Source of the DNA: Solimonas terrae
GTDB taxonomy: Bacteria > Pseudomonadota > Gammaproteobacteria > Nevskiales > Nevskiaceae
DNA length: 64,000 bases
Direction: 5' to 3'
NCBI RefSeq assembly: GCF_011067135.1
Contig: NZ_JAAMOW010000006.1
Location: forward strand, 248,001 to 312,000
The notes under the pieces were generated by a model, which saw only the letters and a list, made by a program, of their open reading frames with translations, ran no database searches and was not told the DNA's origin. Of the stretch, positions 10,051 through 20,545 are shown piece by piece. The position numbers and the translations under genes were made by a program. The number at the start of each line of letters is the position of its first letter. Within the stretch, counting starts at the first letter, position 1.

Positions 10051-10191
10051 GGCGGGCTCCTCCGGGAATTCGGCGCCAGTGTGAAGAGCCCTCGGCTCGC
10101 AAACTTCGTCCGCCGCCATATCTGCATCCGGACGAGACGCGCGCCGCCGACGCGCCGCGACAATCGCCGCTCCCGTCACCGGAAGCCGCTC

Positions 10192-11130
10192 ATGTCGTCC
10201 GCATCGCAACCCGATCCCCAGGTCCAGGCCCTGCTTGCCGCGACGGCCGGCATGCCCGAGCCCGACTACGCGACGCTGACCGCGCCGCAGCTGCGCGCGG
10301 CGCTGGCGGCGAGCCCGGCGATGTTCGCGCCCGGCGATGACGTGGCCGAGATCCGCGATCGCACGATCCGCGTCGCGAATGGCGATCTGCGCCTGCGCTT
10401 CTATCGCCCGCACGGCGATGCGCGCTTGCCGGCCGTGCTGTATTTCCACGGCGGCGGCTTCGTCAGCTGCGGCCTCGACACGCACGACAACATCTGCCGC
10501 ACGCTCGCCGCGCGCAGTAAGGCCTTGGTGGTTTCCGTCGATTACGCACTGGCGCCGGAAGCGCCGTTTCCGGCGGCCGTCGAGGATGCCTTGTTCGCGC
10601 TCGACTGGCTCGATGCGAACGCGGCGAGCCTCGGCGTCGATGCCGCGCGTATCGCCGTTGCCGGCGACAGCGCCGGCGGCAATCTCGCGGCCGTGCTCGC
10701 CCAGCTCGCGCTACGCAGTGGCGCGCGGCTGCGTCATCAGCTGTTGCTGTATCCGGTGACGGATTGCGTGGCCGAAAGCGAGACCTACGCGCGCTACGCC
10801 AGCGGCTATTTCCTGACGCGCGATGCGATGCGCTGGTATCGCCGCCAGTATCTGGTCGACGCGAAGAACGCACATGATCCGCGCGCCTCGCCGCTGCATG
10901 CCGGCGATGTCACGGGGGTCACAGCCGCGACCATCGTCACCGCCGAGTTCGATCCGCTGCGCGGCGAAGGCGAAGCCTATGCGCGCAAACTCGAAGCCGC
11001 GGGTGTCGCCGTCGACTATCGCTGCTGGCCGGGCATGGTGCACGGCTTTGCCAGCATGCTCGGCGTGATCGACGCGGCCGACGCCGCGTTGACGCATGCC
11101 GCGCAGCGTCTGCGCGCCGCATGGCGTTGA
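10192..11130 (+). CDS. Alpha/beta hydrolase of the HSL (hormone-sensitive lipase) family
   Basis: The protein is 312 aa. It has the HSL oxyanion motif HGGG ('YFHGGGFVS'), the nucleophile elbow 'GDSAGGNLA', a catalytic Asp in 'EFDPLRGEG' and a catalytic His in 'MVHGFASM'. Length and motif spacing fit bacterial HSL carboxylesterases acting on short acyl esters. No signal peptide. The ATG at 10192 is chosen because upstream codons give an Arg-rich sequence outside the family. A second HSL esterase lies at 59402-60406. Confidence 0.88.
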   Translation: MSSASQPDPQVQALLAATAGMPEPDYATLTAPQLRAALAASPAMFAPGDDVAEIRDRTIRVANGDLRLRFYRPHGDARLPAVLYFHGGGFVSCGLDTHDNICRTLAARSKALVVSVDYALAPEAPFPAAVEDALFALDWLDANAASLGVDAARIAVAGDSAGGNLAAVLAQLALRSGARLRHQLLLYPVTDCVAESETYARYASGYFLTRDAMRWYRRQYLVDAKNAHDPRASPLHAGDVTGVTAATIVTAEFDPLRGEGEAYARKLEAAGVAVDYRCWPGMVHGFASMLGVIDAADAALTHAAQRLRAAWR

Positions 11131-11275
11131 GGACAATCGCCGCGCCGCGACGTCGGGGCGCCGGAACGGCCCGCGGCGAGGGCTTCGTGGCGCACCGTCT
11201 CCCCATCGCACGGCGATGGGGAGACGTTTCCACTTCAGCGCCGGAGGCCGGGCACTGGCAGCAGGCACATCCGAA

Positions 11276-11380
11276 TCAATAGCGGCCGGGCTGGCGCGCC
11301 ATCGACACGAGACTGTCGCCGATGTCGGCAAACAGCGCGGCTCCGGTTGCGGCGATCAACAGCGAGTAGAGGATGGTCAT
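11276..11380 (-). CDS. Small predicted membrane peptide (34 aa)
   Basis: A 34-codon frame reads MTILYSLLIAATGAALFADI followed by a short polar tail ending GRY. It has one hydrophobic segment of about 15 residues, and a GGAG motif sits 9 nt before the ATG. It diverges from tetR across the 18-bp repeat array, the usual position for a TetR-controlled target. It is too short for homology-based confidence. The orientation, ribosome-binding site and hydrophobic profile favour a real small protein. Confidence 0.45.
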   Translation of the reverse strand: MTILYSLLIAATGAALFADIGDSLVSMARQPGRY

Positions 11381-11424
11381 GGCGGAACTCCGTTCGGGGA
11401 AAAGCTGACGGACGTTAGTATCTC

Positions 11425-11496
11425 CAATATTGAGTTATTCGTCAATATTGATTTGAACGCCACTATAGAAAGAGACGGCAATATTGACTGGCGTGC
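11425..11496. promoter_or_regulatory. Four-unit 18-bp operator-like array upstream of tetR
   Basis: The palindrome CAATATTG occurs at 11425-11432, 11443-11450 and 11479-11486. A degenerate form (CACTATAG) sits at 11461-11468. All four are spaced by exactly 18 bp and each is followed by A. The stretch is strikingly A+T-rich against its surroundings. It lies between the divergent small-peptide gene and tetR, so it most likely holds overlapping promoters and operators bound by the TetR protein. Confidence 0.7.
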
Positions 11497-11538
11497 CAGC
11501 CCACCCGAAGATCGCGCCTCGCATACGGAGAATTCGCG

Positions 11539-12195
11539 ATGGCGGAATCGCTGACGCGCGGGCACAAGAAGCGGGCCCGGACACTGGAAGAACTGCTCGA
11601 GGCGGCGACGCGCGTGTTTTCGCGCAAGGAGGCGATCCTGACGACGTTCATGGAGATCGCCGACGAGGCGCGTGTCGCCAGCGGCACGGTGCACAACTAT
11701 TTCAAGAGCAAGGAAGAGCTGATCGAGGCAGCGGCGGTCAAGCTGGTCGATCGCATCAACGGCCCGGCCTGGCGCGATTGCGAGCGCATCGAGGACCCTG
11801 CCGCGCGACTCGCCACCATCGTCAAATCGACTTTCCAGCTGATGGCCGACGACCCGGACTGGGGCGCCGCGGTGCTGCGGCTGGTCGACGCCACGCATCG
11901 CACCACCGAAAAGCTGACCAACCTGATCCCGGATCTGCTCGCCGAGGGCCGCCGCAGCGGTCGCATGACGTTCCGCGATCCGGCGGCAGCACTGAACGTG
12001 GTCGCCGGCTCGATCCTCGCCGGCATGCGCAGCGTTCACGCCGGAGCCGCACCCGGCCCGCTGGGCGAACACCTGACCGAACACGTCCTGCTCGCGCTCG
12101 GCCTCAAGGCCCGCGACGCCCTGCGCATCGCACAGGACACGCGCGCGGCGGGCGCCACCGTCGACGCGCGTCCGGCCAGCCGGAAAGGACGCTAG
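11539..12195 (+). CDS. TetR/AcrR family transcriptional regulator
   Basis: The protein is 218 aa. The N-terminal TetR helix-turn-helix spans residues about 13-60 ('TLEELLEAATRVFSRKEAIL', then 'MEIADEARVASGTVHNYFKSKEEL'). The C-terminal ligand-binding half is helical ('DWGAAVLRLVDATHRTTEKL'). The ATG at 11539 is 42 nt past the four-unit 18-bp array, which I take to be its operator, implying autoregulation. The inducer is unknown; an acyl-CoA or steroid-like ligand would fit the surroundings. Confidence 0.9.
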   Translation: MAESLTRGHKKRARTLEELLEAATRVFSRKEAILTTFMEIADEARVASGTVHNYFKSKEELIEAAAVKLVDRINGPAWRDCERIEDPAARLATIVKSTFQLMADDPDWGAAVLRLVDATHRTTEKLTNLIPDLLAEGRRSGRMTFRDPAAALNVVAGSILAGMRSVHAGAAPGPLGEHLTEHVLLALGLKARDALRIAQDTRAAGATVDARPASRKGR

Positions 12196-12361
12196 GGCCT
12201 GTTGACGCCCTGGCAGCACCCCGCCGCCGGACCGTTCGGCGGCTTATCTCCATTCGGACGAGGAGGCGCCGGCGGCGCCCGCTATGCTCGGTCGGGTGGG
12301 CGTTCCGGGACTGGCGCGCCCGGCAGGCACCGGCCGACGCAGCCGGCGCGAGGAGATGAAG

Positions 12362-13567
12362 ATGGTGCAGATGACAGCGGCGGCGAAGGCCGGCAAAGCA
12401 CGGATCGAGGCGATACCCGGCATGCCCGTGCCGCAGGCGCAGCAGCTGGTCGAGTTCGAGCGGCTCAACAGCGTGTTCACGGCGATCTATGACGGCGCCA
12501 GCGAGGACCCGCCGCTGCACAGCTCGCTGCAGACCCTGCGCGAAGTGTTCGATGCCAAGCACACGACCCTGATCCTGCGACCGGCCACCGCGCAGAACGC
12601 CGGCGCCATCATCAATACCGATACCGTCAATGCCCACGCGTCGGAGTCCTATCGCACGCATTTCTACGCGCTGGACCCGTTCGTCGGCCTGCCCGACGGC
12701 GAGGTCGTGACGCCCGAAGAGCTGATGGGGCCGCGCTGGTCGAAGTCCACGTTCTATCGTCAGTTCATGGAACCGGTCGCGGTCGGTCATCTGCTCGGCG
12801 CGGACCTGCGCATGGGCGGCGGCAGCGAGTGCCGCTTCCGCGTCTCGCGCGGCATCGACGCTCTGGCGTTCACCGACGACGACAAGCGCTTCTGCCGCGT
12901 GCTGCTGCCGCACCTGAAACGCGCGATCCAGCTGCACACGCGCATCGACGATCTGGAAAGCGAGCGACAGCTGTTCGCCGGCACGCTGAACCGCATGCAG
13001 CTCGGCACCATCAGCATCACGCGCGACGGCACGGTGCTCGACCTCAACCCCGAAGCGCGGCGCATCCTCGAACAGCGCGACGGCCTGCTGCTCAGCGCCC
13101 AGCACCTGAGCACGGAAGGCGCGACCGAACGCCGCGAACTGCAACGCGTGCTGCGGACCGCGCTCGCCGACCAGAACGATGAAGGACCGGCTGTGATCGA
13201 CGCGATCTCGGTGACGCGGCCGTCCGGTCAGGCCAAGCTGTGTCTGGTGATCCGCCGCGTGCCGCAGGGCATCAGCCCGGAAAGCCGGCAGCGGCCGGCG
13301 GCGATCGTGTTCGTGCGCGATCCGGAAGCCACGCGCCTGAACGGCGCCAACGAGGTCGTCCGTCGTCTGTTCAATTTCACGCGCATGGAAGCGGCGCTGG
13401 CCCTGCATCTGGCCGACGGCCTGACGCTCGACGAGGCTGCCGAGAAACTCGGCGTGCGGCGCAATACCGCACGCACCTATCTGCGCTTCATCTTCTGCAA
13501 GACCGGCGCGACGCGACAGACGACGCTGGTGCGGATGATGCTGAACAGCGTCGTGTCGCTGGCCTGA
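12362..13567 (+). CDS. LuxR-family transcriptional regulator with N-terminal sensor region
   Basis: The protein is 401 aa from this start. The C-terminus carries a LuxR-type helix-turn-helix ('LTLDEAAEKLGVRRNTARTY', residues about 345-395). The region before it contains a PAS-like section ('LNRMQLGTISITRDGTVLDL', 'NPEARRILEQRDGLLLS'). The N-terminal 150 residues are unassigned. AGGAG sits 6 nt before ATG 12362; ATG 12356 overlaps the site too closely. LuxR-type activators such as TeiR control steroid catabolism in Comamonas, so a similar role is conceivable but unproven. No receiver domain or autoinducer-binding domain is recognisable. Confidence 0.82.
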   Translation: MVQMTAAAKAGKARIEAIPGMPVPQAQQLVEFERLNSVFTAIYDGASEDPPLHSSLQTLREVFDAKHTTLILRPATAQNAGAIINTDTVNAHASESYRTHFYALDPFVGLPDGEVVTPEELMGPRWSKSTFYRQFMEPVAVGHLLGADLRMGGGSECRFRVSRGIDALAFTDDDKRFCRVLLPHLKRAIQLHTRIDDLESERQLFAGTLNRMQLGTISITRDGTVLDLNPEARRILEQRDGLLLSAQHLSTEGATERRELQRVLRTALADQNDEGPAVIDAISVTRPSGQAKLCLVIRRVPQGISPESRQRPAAIVFVRDPEATRLNGANEVVRRLFNFTRMEAALALHLADGLTLDEAAEKLGVRRNTARTYLRFIFCKTGATRQTTLVRMMLNSVVSLA

Positions 13568-13627
13568 GCCGGGCGGGCGCGATCGAGGCGCGGCGGCGGT
13601 GGCCGAGCCGGCATGTCGATTTCATTT

Positions 13628-13728
13628 TGTCATTGCGACCCGCCGGCAGCGGCGAAGCGATCCAGGTACGTCACTCGATCCGGCGGAGCGGCCGGATTGC
13701 GTCGGTGCGATGCACCTCGCCATGACGG
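13628..13728. repeat. Intergenic GTCATTGCGA-type inverted repeat
   Basis: The left arm TGTCATTGCGACC (13628-13640) is answered by CCTCGCCATGACG (13715-13727), an imperfect reverse complement. In between are GCGAAGCGATCCAG and a GGATTGCGTCG segment, again roughly complementary. This matches the style of the widespread GTCATTGCGA...GAAGCAATCC intergenic repeats. It lies between convergent genes (LuxR and FGE) and could act as a transcript-end structure. Confidence 0.55.
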
Positions 13729-13752
13729 TGCATGGGGTTCTGCGGCGGCGCG

Positions 13753-14742
13753 CTACGGCGCAGCACTGATCGTGCGAAAGCCGATGTGCACCGTCGGCAG
13801 GTCGGCCTCCTGGCCCTGTCGCGACGACGCGCGTGCGCGTACGCAGTAGTTGTCGGCGCACAGATACGAGCCCCCCTTGATGACGCGCCGCGGCGCCGTA
13901 CCGCGCGCCGGCATCGCCGCCATCGCCGCGGTCTCGTCCGCCGTCGCATGGCCGTCGCGATAGACGTCGGTGGTCCATTCCCAGACGTTGCCGATCATGT
14001 CGTACAGCCCGTCCGGGTTGGCGGCGAAGCAGCCGACCGGCGCGCGGCCGGTGTAGCCGTCCTCGCCGCGGTTGTCGAGCGGAAACAGACCCTGCCAGAA
14101 GTTGGCGAGCGGATGGCCCCGCGCGTCGCGCAGCGCACGGTCGGCGTGTTCGTTGTCGCGGCCGGCCTTGGCGGCGAATTCCCATTGCGCCTCGCTCGGC
14201 AGTGCGCGCCCGAGCCAGTGCGCGTAGGCGAGCGCATCGGCATACGTGATATCGACGACCGGCTCGTTCGGCGCGCCGGCTTTCACGCCGTCAGGTCGGT
14301 GCCAGTTCGCATCGCGGCGCAGTTGCCACCAGCGGCCCGCATTCAGCGCATCGGCATCGTTCGCATCGGGTATGGCAAACACCACGGCACCGTCGCGCCG
14401 CTCGGCGTCGCTGACATAGCCGGTCGCCACGACGAAGCGCGCGAACTGCGCATTCGTGACCTCGGTGCGATCGATCCAGAAGGGCGCCAGCCCGGTCGCG
14501 ACCAGCGGCCGTTCCTCGGCATAACCGCGAAGGCTGCCGAGTTCGAAGCGGCCACCGGCGATGTATTGCATGCCGGCATGCGGTCCGTCGCCGGGGGGCA
14601 GGCCGTCATAGGCGGCGCAGCGCTGCGGCGTGCCGAGTGCCGCCGCCGGCGGGGCGGATGGTGATGCCTCGTGCCGGGCGCGCAGTGCGGCGACGGCGGC
14701 GAACATCACGGCGGCGAGCGCCGCCAGCACGCGCCACTTCAT
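13753..14742 (-). CDS. Formylglycine-generating enzyme (FGE/SUMF1) family protein, membrane-anchored or exported
   Basis: The protein is 329 aa. An N-terminal hydrophobic segment ('VLAALAAVMFAAVAAL') precedes an FGE-sulfatase domain: 'ELGSLRGYAEERP', 'IDRTEVTNAQFARFV', 'LPSEAQWEFAAKAGR', 'DMIGNVWEWTTD' and 'VIKGGSYLCADNYC'. Cys295 and Cys300 match the active-site pair of true FGEs, so it should be competent to oxidise a sulfatase Cys to formylglycine. Its start codon overlaps the sulfatase stop (ATGA), giving coupled translation with its presumed substrate. Oddity: well-studied bacterial FGEs act in the cytoplasm before export, whereas this one appears to be membrane-anchored or secreted. Confidence 0.87.
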   Translation of the reverse strand: MKWRVLAALAAVMFAAVAALRARHEASPSAPPAAALGTPQRCAAYDGLPPGDGPHAGMQYIAGGRFELGSLRGYAEERPLVATGLAPFWIDRTEVTNAQFARFVVATGYVSDAERRDGAVVFAIPDANDADALNAGRWWQLRRDANWHRPDGVKAGAPNEPVVDITYADALAYAHWLGRALPSEAQWEFAAKAGRDNEHADRALRDARGHPLANFWQGLFPLDNRGEDGYTGRAPVGCFAANPDGLYDMIGNVWEWTTDVYRDGHATADETAAMAAMPARGTAPRRVIKGGSYLCADNYCVRARASSRQGQEADLPTVHIGFRTISAAP

Positions 14743-16556
14743 TGGCCGATCGGGATGAGCTGCGGCGGAACGGTCGGGTTGATCGCATCGACGCGCTCGA
14801 CGTATTGCGCCCAGGCCTGCGTCAGCTTCTGGACCTCTTCGGGATTGTCCGCGGCGACATCGGTGGTCTCGCCGCGATCGGTGTCGATGTTGTACAGCTG
14901 CCATTGCCGCGGCAGCAGCAGCGCGGCGCTCGGGAAGAACGCGTTGGCGATCCGCGTCATCTTCCATGGACCCTGCCGCACATAGCGCTGCGCCGCGACT
15001 TCGTCGGCAAACACCGCGTCGTCCGTGTGCGCGGCGCTCGCGCGGCCCGTCAGCAACGGCAGCAGCGACGTGCCCTCGATCGGCGAGAGGCTGCGGCCGT
15101 CGTATTCGCTGTCCGGTGGCGCGACGCCGGTGAGTGCCAGCACGGTCGGCACGATATCCGTCAGCTGTGCATAGGCGCCACTCGGCGCCAGCGATTGACC
15201 GCCGGGCATCTTGACGATGGTCGGCACCGAGATACCGCCTTCGGACGGAAAGGACTTGAACAGGCGGAACGGCGCCGTGCCGACTTCCGCCCAGCGCGTC
15301 GAGCGGAAGATGAAGGAACCCTGCCGGCCGTAGTTGGCCAGCGAGTTGTCGATGTCGAGGTTCAGGTTGCTGTCGACGAACGGGATGAAGCCGTAGCCCA
15401 TGCCGTCGGCGCCATTGTCGGAGAAGAACACGATCATCGTGTTGTCGTATTCGCCGATCGACTTCAGGTAAGCGATGAGGCGGCCGACGTTGTCATCGAG
15501 ATTGGTCAGCATCGCCGCATAGACTTCCATGAGGCGCGCCTCGCTGGTCTGCTGGGCGGCCGTCAGTGCCGACCACGGCGTATTGGTCAGCACGCCCGGC
15601 TGGCCGAAGCGGGTCATCGTCACTTCATCGCCGGGGCTGGGCTTGAAGTCCTGCGGGATGATGCCGAGATCCTTCATGCGCTGGAGGCGCGCGTCGCGGA
15701 TGGCGTCATACCCGGCGTCGTAGACGCTCTTGTAGCACTTGGGCGTGCCTTGCGTGCAGTCGAGATACTTTGCCGGCGCCTGCAGCGGGAAGTGCGTCGC
15801 CTGAAACGGCAGGTAGGCGAAGAACGGCTTGCCGTCGCCATGCGCGGCGCCGATGTACTGCATCAGCTTGTCGGCGTAGTAATCGCTGGAGAAATAGTCG
15901 TCGGGCAGGCTGACTTCCTGTCCGTCTTCGTAGTGCGGCTCGTAGACCGGATAGGGCGGATTGGTCGCAAGGCCCGGCTTGTAGCCGGCCGGGGGCGCGA
16001 AATTGCTGGCGTAATCGGCGTTTGGATCGAGGTAGAAGGCGTGCTCGAATCCCTCGCCCTGCGGGCCCACGCCACCGATGCCCCACTTGCCCGCCATGTA
16101 CGTGTGATAGCCGGCGTCCTTGAGCATCTGCGCGATCGACAGACCGCGCGGATCGAACTGGCCCGCATAGTTCGGATTGCTCGCACCCGTGTACAGCAGC
16201 TTCATGCTGCCCATCTCGCCCATCCCGACCAGGTGATGATCGGCGCCGGTCAGCAGTTCGACGCGCGAGGTCGCACACAGCGGCGTGGTGTGGAAATTGG
16301 TCAGGATCTGGCCGGCGCGCGCCAGCGCATCGAGATTCGGCGTCTGGATCTCGCTGCCGAAGGCGCTGATGTCGGAATACCCGACATCGTCGGCGAGGAT
16401 CACGACCACATTCGGTCGCGCGTTCGCGCTGCCGCCATGGCCGCTGCCGGCATCGTCACCGATGCTGCTGGATTGCCCGCAGGCGGCCAGCAGCAGACAG
16501 GCCGCGATCGGCAGCAGCTGACGCCACGCGGCGCGGACTCGTGAAATTTCCCTCAT
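14739..16556 (-). CDS. Arylsulfatase-family lipoprotein
   Basis: The protein is 605 aa. A lipobox (LLAAC, Cys26) predicts a lipid-anchored periplasmic or outer-membrane protein. The sulfatase core starts 'PNVVVILADDVGYSD' (metal-binding DD), and the active-site segment is 'TTPLCATSRVELLTG' with Cys94. The canonical motif is C-x-P-x-R; here the third position is Thr (C-A-T-S-R). Later motifs include 'MAGKWGIGG' and 'IVFFSDNGADG'. It should hydrolyse sulfate esters, after conversion of Cys94 to formylglycine by the coupled FGE. The start at 16556 has a GGGAGA site and gives a proper signal peptide. Substrate unknown; steroid or aryl sulfates fit the locus. Confidence 0.9.
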   Translation of the reverse strand: MREISRVRAAWRQLLPIAACLLLAACGQSSSIGDDAGSGHGGSANARPNVVVILADDVGYSDISAFGSEIQTPNLDALARAGQILTNFHTTPLCATSRVELLTGADHHLVGMGEMGSMKLLYTGASNPNYAGQFDPRGLSIAQMLKDAGYHTYMAGKWGIGGVGPQGEGFEHAFYLDPNADYASNFAPPAGYKPGLATNPPYPVYEPHYEDGQEVSLPDDYFSSDYYADKLMQYIGAAHGDGKPFFAYLPFQATHFPLQAPAKYLDCTQGTPKCYKSVYDAGYDAIRDARLQRMKDLGIIPQDFKPSPGDEVTMTRFGQPGVLTNTPWSALTAAQQTSEARLMEVYAAMLTNLDDNVGRLIAYLKSIGEYDNTMIVFFSDNGADGMGYGFIPFVDSNLNLDIDNSLANYGRQGSFIFRSTRWAEVGTAPFRLFKSFPSEGGISVPTIVKMPGGQSLAPSGAYAQLTDIVPTVLALTGVAPPDSEYDGRSLSPIEGTSLLPLLTGRASAAHTDDAVFADEVAAQRYVRQGPWKMTRIANAFFPSAALLLPRQWQLYNIDTDRGETTDVAADNPEEVQKLTQAWAQYVERVDAINPTVPPQLIPIGQ

Positions 16557-16718
16557 CGCTCTCCCCCGGACCCGTCGTCGCGCCGCCGATTCACGGCCGC
16601 TCGCAACGGATATCTGTTGATCCATCGTCCTGCGCGCTTTCGCGTCCGCCAATCTACGGCTGTACTGGCCACGCACGGAAGGGGCGCGGCGACGAACCCG
16701 CCGGGGGCAAAGCGGCCA

Positions 16719-17768
16719 TCAGGCCGGCATCGCCCGGCCGCGCGGCGCAGACCCGGTCCAGCGCTTGTACGCGCGGCGCAGTTCGCGCTCGTCGCTGTAG
16801 CCCAGTTCGAGCGCCGCCGCGGCAACGCTGCAGCGCGGATCGCCGAGCAGCACCTGTGCGCGCTCGGCGCGCAACTCGTCGTGCAGCGCGCGGAAGCTGC
16901 TGTGTGCGTCGGCAAGACGCCGTCGCAGGGTGCGCTCGCCGATCCGCAATTCGCGTGCGGCGTCGGCGATGCGCGGGTTCCGGCCGAGCCGCGGCCGCAG
17001 CCATGCGCGCAGCGCTTCGACGACATCGTCGTGCTCGGACGGCGGCGGCAGCCGCGCCTGCAAGAGACGCAGGCTCTCGGCGTGCGCGCTCGCGCTGTGC
17101 GTCGCGATCCGGCGACGCAGGATGGCCGGGTCCGAATACAGGCGATCGGCCGGCGCGTTGAAGCGGATCGGACAAGCGAAATAGCGGTGGTAGTCGGCGA
17201 CGCAACTCGGTTCGCCGTAGCGCAGTTCAAGGCGCAGCGGCCGGTAGTCGGCACCGGCCAGCGCGCGCACCACGACCAGTGCGCTGCCGAACAGCTTCTC
17301 GCAGAGAAAACGTTGCAGGGCCGGCTCGGCGAAGCGTTCGATGCCTTCGAGGACCAGCTCGCCGTTGCGGACGAAGCAGCGCACGTCGGTCAACGCGCCG
17401 GCCGCTGGGTAATATTGTTCGCCGACGCGCGCGGCGGCCGTCAGGTCCGGCGCCGCCATCAACGAAAAGCCGAGCACGCCGAGCGACGGCAGCGTCAGCC
17501 GCGCGGCGGCTTCCAGGCCGAGCGGCGCGTCGGGAAATTCGCGCAGCGCTTCCTGCACGATCGCGACGACATTGGCGTACGACAGGCGCCCGTCGGGATC
17601 GGCGCAGATCGCGGTGCGCAGGCCGGCGGCGGCAAACCAGCGTTCGGGATCGGTGCCGCGTGCGCGCGCCGCTTCGATCAGGCCGGCGAGATTCGCGGCT
17701 CGGATGTTGGCGACCCGGTACGCCGGCTGGCCGCCCAGTTGCCCCCGCCATTCCGCCGCGCCGGCCAT
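16719..17768 (-). CDS. AraC-family transcriptional regulator
   Basis: The protein is 349 aa. The N-terminal two thirds is the arabinose-binding-type domain common in AraC regulators of catabolic genes ('LAGLIEAARARGTDPERWFA', 'GVLGFSLMAAPDLTAAARVG'). The C-terminal helix-turn-helix pair lies at residues about 255-345 ('RIADAARELRIGERTLRRRL', 'VAAAALELGYSDERELRRAY'). ATG 17768 is chosen because upstream codons overlap the SDR gene and give Arg/Pro-rich sequence. It starts 7 nt after the SDR stop on the same strand, so SDR and regulator are probably cotranscribed. Confidence 0.87.
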   Translation of the reverse strand: MAGAAEWRGQLGGQPAYRVANIRAANLAGLIEAARARGTDPERWFAAAGLRTAICADPDGRLSYANVVAIVQEALREFPDAPLGLEAAARLTLPSLGVLGFSLMAAPDLTAAARVGEQYYPAAGALTDVRCFVRNGELVLEGIERFAEPALQRFLCEKLFGSALVVVRALAGADYRPLRLELRYGEPSCVADYHRYFACPIRFNAPADRLYSDPAILRRRIATHSASAHAESLRLLQARLPPPSEHDDVVEALRAWLRPRLGRNPRIADAARELRIGERTLRRRLADAHSSFRALHDELRAERAQVLLGDPRCSVAAAALELGYSDERELRRAYKRWTGSAPRGRAMPA

Positions 17769-17775
17769 CACGCTT

Positions 17776-18540
17776 TCAGCCCTTGTTGACGGTCGCGGCG
17801 TCGAGAAAGGCCGGGCGCTCGCCGCCGCCGTGCAGCAGCAGATTGCTGCCGGACAGGTAAGCCGCAGCCGCGGACGATACCCAGACGCAGGCGGCACCGA
17901 CGTCGGCCGGCATCGCCATGCGCCGCATGGGGATCGTTCTCTCGACGGCAGCGATGCCCGCTGCATCGCCATAGTGAAGCTCGGCCTGTTCGGTCAGCAC
18001 CGGTCCCGGGCTGACGGCGACGACGCGCACCTTCGGCGCCCATTCGACCGCGAGTGACTGCACTAGGCTCAAGGTCGCCGCCTTGGCCGCGCCATAGGCC
18101 GCCGTACCCGGCGACGGGCGCAGCGCGCTGACGCTGCCGATGAACACGATGGTGCCGCCGTCGCGCGCCTGCATCAGTGCATTGGCTTTCTGTGCGAGAT
18201 GAAATGGCGCCAGCAGATTCAGTGCAAAGATCTTCTCGTGGAAGCGCGGCGAGGCCTTGTCGGCCATCGCGAACGGCGCACCGCCGGCATTGTTGACGAG
18301 CACATCGAGCCGGCCATAGCGCTCGGTGATCTGCGTAAACAGAGCATCGACAGCTGCCGTGTCGCGAATGTCGACCGCAAGAAATTCCGCTTTTCGGTCG
18401 CCGACCGCCGGCAATGTTTCGGGCGCCTCGCGCCCGCAAACCAGCACCTGATCGCCATTGGCGAGAAAGCTTTCGCTGATACCGCGGCCGACGCCCTTGG
18501 CGCCGCCGGTGACGAGGATGATGCGTTGCGGGTTCGACAC
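17776..18540 (-). CDS. Short-chain dehydrogenase/reductase (SDR)
   Basis: The protein is 254 aa. The nucleotide-binding motif is 'TGGAKGVGRGI'; it also has 'NNAGG' near residue 85, catalytic Ser in 'FIGSVSALRP' and 'YGAAK' for Tyr/Lys. The tail 'YLSGSNLLLHGGG' is typical of FabG-like SDRs. It is divergent from the ring-cleavage hydrolase gene at 18767, with a 226-nt shared upstream region, and is followed by the AraC gene. It probably oxidises or reduces a hydroxyl in the same pathway; substrate not determinable. Confidence 0.88.
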   Translation of the reverse strand: MSNPQRIILVTGGAKGVGRGISESFLANGDQVLVCGREAPETLPAVGDRKAEFLAVDIRDTAAVDALFTQITERYGRLDVLVNNAGGAPFAMADKASPRFHEKIFALNLLAPFHLAQKANALMQARDGGTIVFIGSVSALRPSPGTAAYGAAKAATLSLVQSLAVEWAPKVRVVAVSPGPVLTEQAELHYGDAAGIAAVERTIPMRRMAMPADVGAACVWVSSAAAAYLSGSNLLLHGGGERPAFLDAATVNKG

Positions 18541-18766
18541 GGGATTCCGTCCTCTGGCTCACCGCGATTGTCGCCCAGATGGCGCGCGGCGGAAGTCGTC
18601 AGCTTGGACGAGCCGCGGCGGCTCGCGCGGGTCAGGCCGAGCGCGTGAGGCGATGCCCCGATGTCATGGCTTCATGCGCTCACCCAAAAGGACGAAGAGT
18701 CGCAGGGGGCCGCTGCGGGACCATGCACGCCTGCGCCAACGCGCCCCGCCGAAGAACGCCCCGAAC

Positions 18767-19594
18767 ATGAGCAAACCCGTTCCCGAAGGGAAATACGCCA
18801 CGCTGCCGAATGGCTACCGCATCCACTATCTCGACGAGGGCCAGGGTCCGGTCGTGGTCTTTCTGCATGGCTCCGGTTCCGGCGCCTGCGGTTACTCGAA
18901 TTTCAAGGGCAACTATCCTGCGCTGGTGAAGGCCGGTTATCGCGTGATCCTGCCGGACCTGATCGGTTACGGGTATTCCGACAAGCCGGCCGACGTCGAA
19001 TACCCGCTGTCGTTCTTCATCGAATGCGTGAAGCAGACACTCGATGCGATCGGCGTTTCCAAGTACACGCTGATCGGTAATTCTCTGGGCGGCGCGATCG
19101 CGCTCGGTTTTGCGCTGGCGCATCCGCAGAACGTCGAGAAGCTGGTGCTGATGGCGCCGGGCGGCGTCGAGGACCAGCCGGACTATTTCAAGATGCCGGG
19201 CATGGCGGTCATGAAGGAAATCTTCATGTCGGCCGAACCGGTGACGCCGGCACGCCTGCGCTATTTCATGGAAAACGCGCTGGTGTACGACAAGGCGCAC
19301 ATCGATGACGAACTGGTCGCCGAGCGGCACGCGCTGATGCTGACGCAGAACCCGCAGGTCGTGAAGACCATGGTCGTGCCGAACATGACCTCGCGCCTGC
19401 CGGAGATCCAGTGCCCGGCACTCGGCTTCTGGGGCATCAACGAAAAGATGATGCCGGAGACCGGCATCCTCAAGCTCGCCAAGGGCGTGCCGAATCTTCG
19501 CATGATCACGGTGCCGAACTGCGGCCACTGGGTGATGGTCGAACATCGCGAGATGTTCAACCGCGCCGTCATCGATTTCCTGAAAAATGACTGA
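18767..19594 (+). CDS. hsaD: Meta-cleavage product hydrolase (HsaD/TesD/BphD-like)
   Basis: The protein is 275 aa, an alpha/beta hydrolase. The oxyanion region is 'VVVFLHGSGSGACGYSNFKG', the nucleophile elbow is 'GNSLGGAIALG' (Ser106), and the catalytic His lies in 'VPNCGHWVMVEH'. 'GSGSGACGYSNF' is the C-C bond hydrolase signature. These enzymes split the ring-cleavage product into a dienoate plus an acid; in steroid degradation HsaD acts on 4,9-DSHA. It leads the operon with hydratase, aldehyde dehydrogenase and aldolase, supporting the role. Steroid versus biphenyl-type substrate rests on the wider context. Confidence 0.82.
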   Translation: MSKPVPEGKYATLPNGYRIHYLDEGQGPVVVFLHGSGSGACGYSNFKGNYPALVKAGYRVILPDLIGYGYSDKPADVEYPLSFFIECVKQTLDAIGVSKYTLIGNSLGGAIALGFALAHPQNVEKLVLMAPGGVEDQPDYFKMPGMAVMKEIFMSAEPVTPARLRYFMENALVYDKAHIDDELVAERHALMLTQNPQVVKTMVVPNMTSRLPEIQCPALGFWGINEKMMPETGILKLAKGVPNLRMITVPNCGHWVMVEHREMFNRAVIDFLKND

Positions 19595-19618
19595 GCCGAT
19601 GCGCATTGCAACCCTGCC

Positions 19619-19714
19619 CGTTCGTCCCGAGTGCGCCGCGCAGCGGCGTGTATCGAGGGACGCACCCCGGCCCCTCGATACACCGCGCCTGCGGTACGGC
19701 ACGCGGGGCGAACG
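19619..19714. repeat. Cloverleaf-foldable palindromic repeat, copy 2 (inside the meta-cleavage operon)
   Basis: Outer arms 19619-19634 and 19699-19714 pair at 14 of 16 positions plus one G-U. Inside are three hairpins: GCCGC/GCGGC (19635-19647), a perfect 12-bp stem (19648-19659 with 19672-19683) and a 4-bp stem (about 19683-19694). The arm start and three-hairpin plan match copy 1 at 4343-4440, although loops and arms have diverged. It fills the gap between hydrolase and hydratase genes, so it is transcribed with the operon. Confidence 0.75.
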
Positions 19715-19747
19715 CGGCCGGCCGGGCGATGCGACCGTGGGGACAGC

Positions 19748-20545
19748 ATGAGCCTTCCCCAGACCCGCATCGTCGAACTTGGTGACGAGTTGTTCGATGC
19801 GCTGCGCGCGCGCCGTACGCTGGCACCGCTGATCGAGCGCGTCGCCGGCATCGACATCGACGATGCCTACAACATCTCGCTGCGTTTCCTCGAGCGGCGG
19901 ACGGCCGACGGCGAACGCGTGATCGGCAAGAAGATCGGCGTCACGTCGAAACCCGTGCAGGACATGCTCGGCGTGCATCAGCCGGATTTCGGCTTTCTCA
20001 CCGATCGCATGCAGGTGGGCAACGGCAAGGTCATCAGCATTGCCGGCAGCGGCCTGATCCAGCCGCGCGCCGAAGGCGAGATCGCCTTCGTGCTGAAGAA
20101 GGATCTGAAAGGTCCGGGCGTGACCGAGGACCAGGTGCTCGATGCCACCGACTACGTGCTGCCGTGCTTCGAGATCGTCGACTCGCGCATCCACGACTGG
20201 AAGATCAGGATCCAGGACACGGTGTCAGACAATGCATCCTGCGGCGTGTTCGTCATCGGCGACGATCGCGTCAAGCCGCACGCGCTCGACCTGGCCACCG
20301 TGAAGATGGACATCAGCAAGAACGGCGTGCATATGGCCTCCGGTCTCGGCTCGGCCGTGCAGGGTCATCCAGCGACGGCGGTTGCCTGGCTCGCCAATAC
20401 GCTCGGTCGCTACGGCATTCCGTTTCTGAAGGGCGAAATCATCCTGTCCGGTTCGCTGGCGCCGCTGCTGCCGGCGGTGCCGGGCGACCGTTTCCACATG
20501 ACGCTGGCCGACATCGGCGAAGCGTCGATCGGCTTCGAGGCTTAA
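19748..20545 (+). CDS. hsaE: 2-hydroxypenta-/hexa-2,4-dienoate hydratase
   Basis: The protein is 265 aa, the usual size for MhpD/XylJ/HsaE hydratases. Family motifs are '[18 protein letters not shown]' (residues about 58-75), '[10 protein letters not shown]', '[11 protein letters not shown]' with the metal-binding Glu, and 'ALEIVDSRI'-type '[14 protein letters not shown]'. It hydrates the dienoate from the hydrolase to a 4-hydroxy-2-oxo acid. It is separated from the hydrolase by the cloverleaf repeat and followed 2 nt later by the aldehyde dehydrogenase. Confidence 0.92.

Follow-up and report, generated by a model that had tools for sequence, protein, structure and literature searches.

In passages of published papers, CxPxR is given as the recognition motif of the prokaryotic formylglycine-generating enzyme (FGE), and the enzyme itself is described as cytosolic (excerpts of PMC4505483). 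Similarly, Cys-type sulfatases are typically cytosolic according to part of a review (PMC3920027). The residue at position +2 of the motif is Pro in 87% of SulfAtlas entries, Ala in 369 of 4058 and any other residue in less than 1% each, as given in a section of PMC5066984. Departures from the updated catalytic pattern of that source, [CS]-x-[PA]-x-R, are thus already known, because residues other than Pro and Ala are counted there. The window analysed here, 64,000 nucleotides of Solimonas terrae DNA (contig NZ_JAAMOW010000006.1), carries an overlapping sulfatase gene and FGE gene, both on the minus strand, as are all parts of these two genes located below. The sulfatase motif has Thr in place of Pro, and the N-termini of both products look exported. 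With a probability of roughly 0.65, the two genes are read as an envelope-located formylglycine system, in which an FGE and its paired sulfatase have a relaxed +2 position.

The sulfatase coding sequence (14739..16556) specifies 605 amino acids, and its closest solved relative is the Pseudomonas aeruginosa arylsulfatase (PAS, 1hdh). Its Pfam domain, PF00884 (E 2.3e-52), places it in the sulfatase fold, and its structure model (mean predicted local distance difference test, pLDDT, 84.9) matches 1hdh best (Foldseek E 1.2e-54). PF00884 and, on the FGE, PF03781 are the only Pfam families found on the two genes. The original prediction had read the sulfatase motif as C-A-T-S-R without proline, and translation and alignment of relatives agree: C94-A-T-S-R98 (16263..16277) stands in the region TTPLC94ATSRVELLTG and fails the pattern [CS]-x-[PA]-x-R (PMC5066984, in part). 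Residues 1-25 (16482..16556), read by eye, form a signal peptide that runs up to the lipobox LLAA-C26. The protein is thus lipoprotein-like (LLAAC26), and column C26 is at least 90% conserved across the 18 rows of alignment A1.

The FGE coding sequence (13753..14742; 329 amino acids) was recognized from its translation, Pfam and a fold model. Its ATG and the sulfatase TGA share four bases, ATGA (14739..14742), an arrangement also present in the closest relative, G042. The SUMF1 domain PF03781 is matched with an E of 6.9e-62 (209.8 bits, cut-off 23.3), and the model (mean pLDDT 76.9) finds its best matches in the FGEs of Streptomyces coelicolor and Thermomonospora curvata. Cys295 (13858..13860) and Cys300 (13843..13845) lie in KGGSYLC295ADNYC300, the C-terminal Cys region (KGGSYLCADNYC), and align to the copper-binding Cys pair of known FGEs. 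This pair is five residues apart in 49/49 FGE rows, the comparison rows having been pre-filtered for it. The N-terminus, MKWRVLAALAAVMFAAVAAL, is hydrophobic, with a 15-residue Kyte-Doolittle maximum of 2.62; by hydropathy, residues 5-20 (14683..14730) are a candidate signal anchor or signal peptide. The overlap with the sulfatase stop codon, the two retained catalytic Cys and the membrane-targeting N-terminus had all been noticed in the original prediction, and each holds in the present analysis. The gene content, motif, cysteines, N-termini, conservation and pairing of the two genes are observed.

Export was approached through the relatives. A hydrophobic N-terminus was taken as a 15-residue Kyte-Doolittle maximum of at least 1.5, a threshold chosen after the values had been seen. 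By this measure, the N-termini of all 40 rows of a 40-row FGE clade are hydrophobic, with untrimmed values of 1.78 and 2.37 used for L158 and L172 (trimmed value 0.5). Lipoboxes were read by eye on the FGEs of L147, L182, L165 and L056. The hydrophobic N-terminus of the window FGE, together with the lipoboxes of its relatives, points to a predicted location outside the cytosol, unlike that of the prokaryotic FGE as described.

Linkage between FGE and sulfatase was counted over named loci, the best 80 kept from a scan of the genome collection, in which more exist. An FGE lies in the fetched flank of 24 of the 78 loci with a usable row (L143 was left out, and the FGE of L210 is cut by the contig end). 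A linked FGE accompanies 24/64 sulfatases with a hydrophobic N-terminus and 0/14 without one (Fisher p 0.004, phylogeny uncontrolled); counted the other way, the N-terminus is hydrophobic in 24/24 FGE-linked and 40/54 unlinked sulfatases. When L188, whose signal was probably missed by the hydropathy window, is reassigned, the figure becomes 0/13 (p 0.007). In addition, the FGE adjoins the sulfatase in 11/20 wider regions fetched from relatives in the order, each time with a hydrophobic N-terminus. In the sulfatases of L147 and L182, CNDNDNQE follows the lipobox. An Acinetobacter baumannii arylsulfatase with CNDNDSQE at P1'-P8' is tabulated, with an outer membrane vesicle citation, as a verified/putative type II secretion system lipoprotein substrate (PMC12802150, in part), and the L147 and L182 proteins are inferred from their sequences to be its orthologues. 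Against the cytosolic description of Cys-type sulfatases, two Kiritimatiellales strains (PVC group) encode sulfatases by the hundred, mostly with signal peptides and almost all of the Cys type; PF03781 domains are present in 20 and 11 of their genes (PMC6388578). Also, exported sulfatases are paired with FGE genes in metagenome-assembled genomes (MAGs) from mats (PMC9723792). Neither account gives the location of the FGE. No paper on an exported or periplasmic bacterial FGE was found in the literature searched, which is not proof of absence.

Sulfatase matches at 1e-40 occur in 21/85 genomes of the order and FGE matches at 1e-30 in 22/85; in the class, where no more than five candidates were scored for each genome, FGE matches at 1e-55 occur in 6/370 genomes. 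The own genome is included in each count. Among 31 aligned frames, which include three genes seen twice, the near relatives have CATSR, CATTR or CSTTR, others have CAITR, and the remainder have CSPTR or CSPSR. Thr is found at +2 in 16/17 sulfatases of the window clade, window included, as CATSR, CATTR or CSTTR. Compared with G042, the sulfatase and FGE genes have ratios of nonsynonymous to synonymous substitution (dN/dS) of 0.20 and 0.19, values that indicate purifying selection on both window genes. Because Thr is so widely kept and both ratios are low, CxTxR does not appear to be a chance occurrence. Pro is the commonest +2 residue among the named loci listed. Among the same matches, Burkholderia, Paraburkholderia, Collimonas, Ralstonia and one Pseudomonas have Ile. 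Val is the residue in Cupriavidus, in two Algoriphagus and in a gammaproteobacterial MAG; a single MAG has Ala, and a Desulfobacteria MAG has Thr. CSPTR sulfatases with a linked FGE, whose N-terminus is hydrophobic or carries a lipobox, are found in Acinetobacter, Massilia, Azohydromonas, Marinobacterium and others, and FGEs of the same clade have CAITR or CAVTR partners in Burkholderiales. One relative of the sulfatase, from Hyphomonadaceae (L198, 5602-7596), reads PLSR and lacks a Cys where the motif aligns.

The strongest comparative evidence for conversion of CxTxR comes from two one-contig assemblies, G045 and G050 (98 and 99% complete). Each has a single PF03781 gene and four PF00884 places, only one of which bears a formylglycine motif (CATSR in G045, CSTTR in G050); the remaining three places are read as phosphoethanolamine (PEtN)-transferase-like, LtaS-like or of a motif-less type. 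The radical SAM maturase, anaerobic sulfatase-maturating enzyme (anSME), was matched over cut-off in 0/12 relatives' genomes searched, with weak sub-cut-off matches in G052 (3.5e-17) and G058 (8e-4). If the FGE did not act on CxTxR, it would have no known substrate in G045 and G050, and such action is therefore the best reading of these two genomes.

In the proposed mechanism, both proteins would exit the cytoplasm, the sulfatase as a lipoprotein and the FGE through an N-terminal hydrophobic anchor that faces the periplasm, with a lipid anchor on the FGE of some relatives instead. The periplasmic FGE, with Cu(I) on Cys295 and Cys300 and with O2, would oxidize Cys94 of the unfolded sulfatase to formylglycine, and the sulfatase would fold afterwards and act in the periplasm or at the cell surface. 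Position +2 would be relaxed in the paired lineage. Since Pro, Thr, Ile and Val all occur there, Thr is presumably just tolerated, with no special enzyme to read it. The periplasmic orientation, the reaction, its timing and the catalytic activity of the sulfatase are inferred.

Several points weigh against this mechanism. Signals were judged by hydropathy and by eye, and the charges that flank the FGE segment are not enough to settle which way it is oriented. Much of the FGE model over residues 255-317 is of poor quality. Five FGEs of the order (L100, L101, L103, L138 and L140) have hydrophobic N-termini without Cys238, one of two cysteines characteristic of the 40-row clade. The KWH histidine of the sulfatase is lost, and with Gly159 in its place the activity of the enzyme is uncertain. 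Finally, the own genome encodes a CSPSR sulfatase that would be hard to serve by a periplasmic FGE, because its Tat-like (twin-arginine translocation) start implies folding before export.

The clade-specific cysteines are Cys238 (14029..14031), present in 40/40 rows of the clade, and Cys42 (14617..14619), present in 37/40; the FGEs without Cys42 (L219, L232 and L233) have a nearby Cys that is not aligned. In the comparison set of eight FGEs, Cys238 is present in 0/8 and Cys42 in 1/8 (L103). A disulfide between Cys42 and Cys238 is proposed from the alignment. The two cysteines were also considered as a general mark of export, and this was rejected: the five FGEs named above are likewise signal-like at the N-terminus, and with 5/8 comparison FGEs hydrophobic there, Cys42 and Cys238 mark the clade and not export. 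Only the S. coelicolor, T. curvata and L089 enzymes of the comparison set are likely cytosolic, the T. curvata sequence being one that lacks its N-terminus. The same five FGEs form a second, distant group (GGSFLCDPxxCYG), and exported FGEs may extend more widely than one clade.

The own genome contains two PF03781 genes, the window FGE and an EgtB-like one, which makes the exported-looking FGE its sole FGE. Its six PF00884 places comprise the window sulfatase, the CSPSR sulfatase, three that are read as PEtN-transferase-like and one weak sub-cut-off match without a motif. No match to anSME was found in this genome. The CSPSR sulfatase (G000:C11:770251-771324; L006, L237) thus shares its genome with a single FGE, one that looks exported. 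A 37% identical homologue of this sulfatase in G042 (L233, 1779-3773) has the motif CSTAR, and CxTxR therefore occurs outside the PAS-like family as well.

Of the competing explanations, the one that survives best is nevertheless improbable: that the sulfatase either escapes conversion or, once converted, lacks ordinary sulfatase action, and that the pair has drifted to another role. It draws on the absence of the proline and on Gly159 (16080..16082), which aligns to the His of KWH, an active-site residue of PAS. Only the window sulfatase and its G042 sister have KWG; the remaining 16 rows of alignment A1 and the remaining 27 of alignment A3 have KWH. All other active-site positions checked, D56, D57, C94, R98, K157, H255, D380, N381 and K434, are kept, which argues against such drift, and their roles are assumed from PAS. 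Part of these roles is given in the available text of PMC5066984, and the SulfAtlas pattern there permits H, L, G or N at the position of the KWH His. In addition, the other CxTxR relatives in A1 retain the full set including His, and the dN/dS ratios of 0.20 and 0.19 suggest that Gly159 is not simple decay. The sister sulfatase that shares Gly159 is 87% identical to the window enzyme, and a change of catalytic mechanism is possible.

Slightly less likely is an FGE dedicated to proline-less motifs, as the original prediction had proposed. Its pocket would then be adapted to Thr, for instance through replacement of Tyr by Ala/Ser at residue 303, which is close to Cys300 in the chain. In the CxTxR-linked clade, residue 303 (Ala303 in the window FGE, 13834..13836) is Ala or Ser in 10/10 FGEs, and Tyr or Phe stands there in the other 39/39. 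The ten include L228, whose partner motif falls outside the contig; its Thr is an assumption based on a sulfatase fragment of 55% identity. Other FGE columns were considered as separating Pro, Ile/Val and Thr partners, and many simply track phylogeny; only 303 separates them fully. In the FGE tree (49 rows), the CxTxR-linked FGEs form one clade (98/91) and the Ile/Val-linked FGEs another (99/96), each a single branch. The separation at residue 303 possibly reflects an adaptation of the CxTxR-linked clade. However, the change is a single event on the tree, which limits it to a hint. It is also not required for CxTxR, because Tyr303 is kept in the FGEs of G049, G051 and G052, all three genomes in which a CSTTR sulfatase stands unlinked. 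Similarly, G043 has an exported-looking Tyr303 FGE linked to a CAITR sulfatase and two CATSR sulfatases in the same genome; its second PF03781 gene is matched in two pieces, like the EgtB-like gene of the own genome.

The partners of the FGE clade speak further against dedication. Both branches nest in the 40-row clade, the remainder of which is CxPxR-linked or unlinked (G049, G051 and G052). G059 (94% complete, same family as the window) has one PF03781 gene, an Ala303 FGE, for CATSR, CATTR, CSPTR and CSPSR sulfatases, and the own genome combines its CSPSR sulfatase with a single FGE-type gene and without any match to anSME. For these reasons a dedicated enzyme was not favoured. As the 40-row clade includes CxPxR-linked members, export and pairing appear older than the loss of proline, a reading of an unrooted tree. 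The extra CxTxR sulfatases of G059, G058 and G043 are in tandem or without an adjoining FGE. Tandem sulfatase pairs are found at L046 and L047 (G059 and G043), the pair in G059 being CATTR next to CSPTR.

The sulfatase tree, in which the motif columns were kept, has 102 rows, matches of at least 33% identity over more than 400 residues, and leaves out L143 (same as L043), L050 (motif region missing) and L198 (site without Cys). Most FGE-linked sulfatases fall in a 39-row clade (Shimodaira-Hasegawa-like approximate likelihood ratio test, SH-aLRT, 100), where 31/39 rows are without proline vs 5/63 outside, the rows being related. Of the rows with proline, 14 have a linked FGE and 52 do not. The fewest changes on this tree are 7 for Pro/non-Pro and 12 for FGE linkage, and independent pairs gave no association between proline loss and a linked FGE (median p 1 over 5 pairs, low power).

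Least probable is a membrane-anchored FGE on the cytoplasmic side that would, like other bacterial FGEs, act on the sulfatase ahead of its export. This would fit the cytosolic description in PMC4505483 (excerpts) and the positive charges on both sides of the hydrophobic segment, but the lipoboxes on relatives' FGEs and the clade-specific cysteines fit the periplasm, and FGE linkage accompanies exported sulfatases. Taken together, the pair is real and conserved, probably located in the envelope and relaxed in its motif. The original interpretation is upheld in part: export of both proteins and use on CxTxR are supported by comparison with relatives.

Seven neighbours were scanned (10081-20545 of the window). 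They encode alpha/beta hydrolases, TetR, LuxR-like and AraC regulators, a short-chain dehydrogenase/reductase and a fumarylacetoacetate-hydrolase-type protein, and none of the seven points to a clear sulfated substrate. The own genome has three secretin matches.

Some change at +2 is tolerated by FGE in vitro. No papers came up in the literature search for the motifs written out as CxTxR and CxAxR. If true, an exported pair of FGE and sulfatase that has Thr, Ile or Val instead of the proline would revise the statements on cytosolic FGE and CxPxR; it would also be a source of naturally exported FGEs and of new aldehyde tags for testing. With the paired clades, what FGE needs at +2 can be tested directly. 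A bolder version is doubtful: bacteria would have evolved a periplasmic formylglycine machine parallel to that of the endoplasmic reticulum (ER), in which a paired FGE and lipoprotein sulfatase co-evolved to do without proline, with a CxTxR branch (pocket opened by Tyr303 to Ala/Ser) and a Cx[IV]TR branch, yielding FGE tag specificities unlike those in use.

Among known systems, PvdO, GldK/PorK and EgtB have the SUMF1 domain in common with the window FGE, which scores under the NCBIfam cut-off for each of eight matched families. PvdO and GldK are envelope proteins. PAS (AtsA; S1_4, P51691, 1hdh) is a full-length relative of the window sulfatase (phmmer 2e-115; Foldseek template modelling (TM) score 0.81/0.93, 39% identity) and has the same checked active-site residues except 159. 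PAS is not known to have a signal peptide. Unlike PAS, the window sulfatase has a lipobox, a linked FGE and Gly159. Also, the motif of PAS contains Pro, its printed chain reading ASPTR with Cys51 before it (PMC5066984, in part), in contrast to CATSR. The solved FGE/SUMF1 enzymes (S. coelicolor 2q17/6muj, T. curvata 6s07, human 1y1e) have the SUMF1 fold and the GGS-x-LC-xxxx-C pair in common with the window FGE, which differs in its predicted N-terminal export segment, Cys42/Cys238 and Ala303. The human ER enzyme (location from excerpts of PMC4505483) would be alike in being copper- and oxygen-dependent, in working outside the cytosol and in serving secreted sulfatases. Its anchoring and cysteines are different, and the window FGE would do this work in the bacterial envelope.

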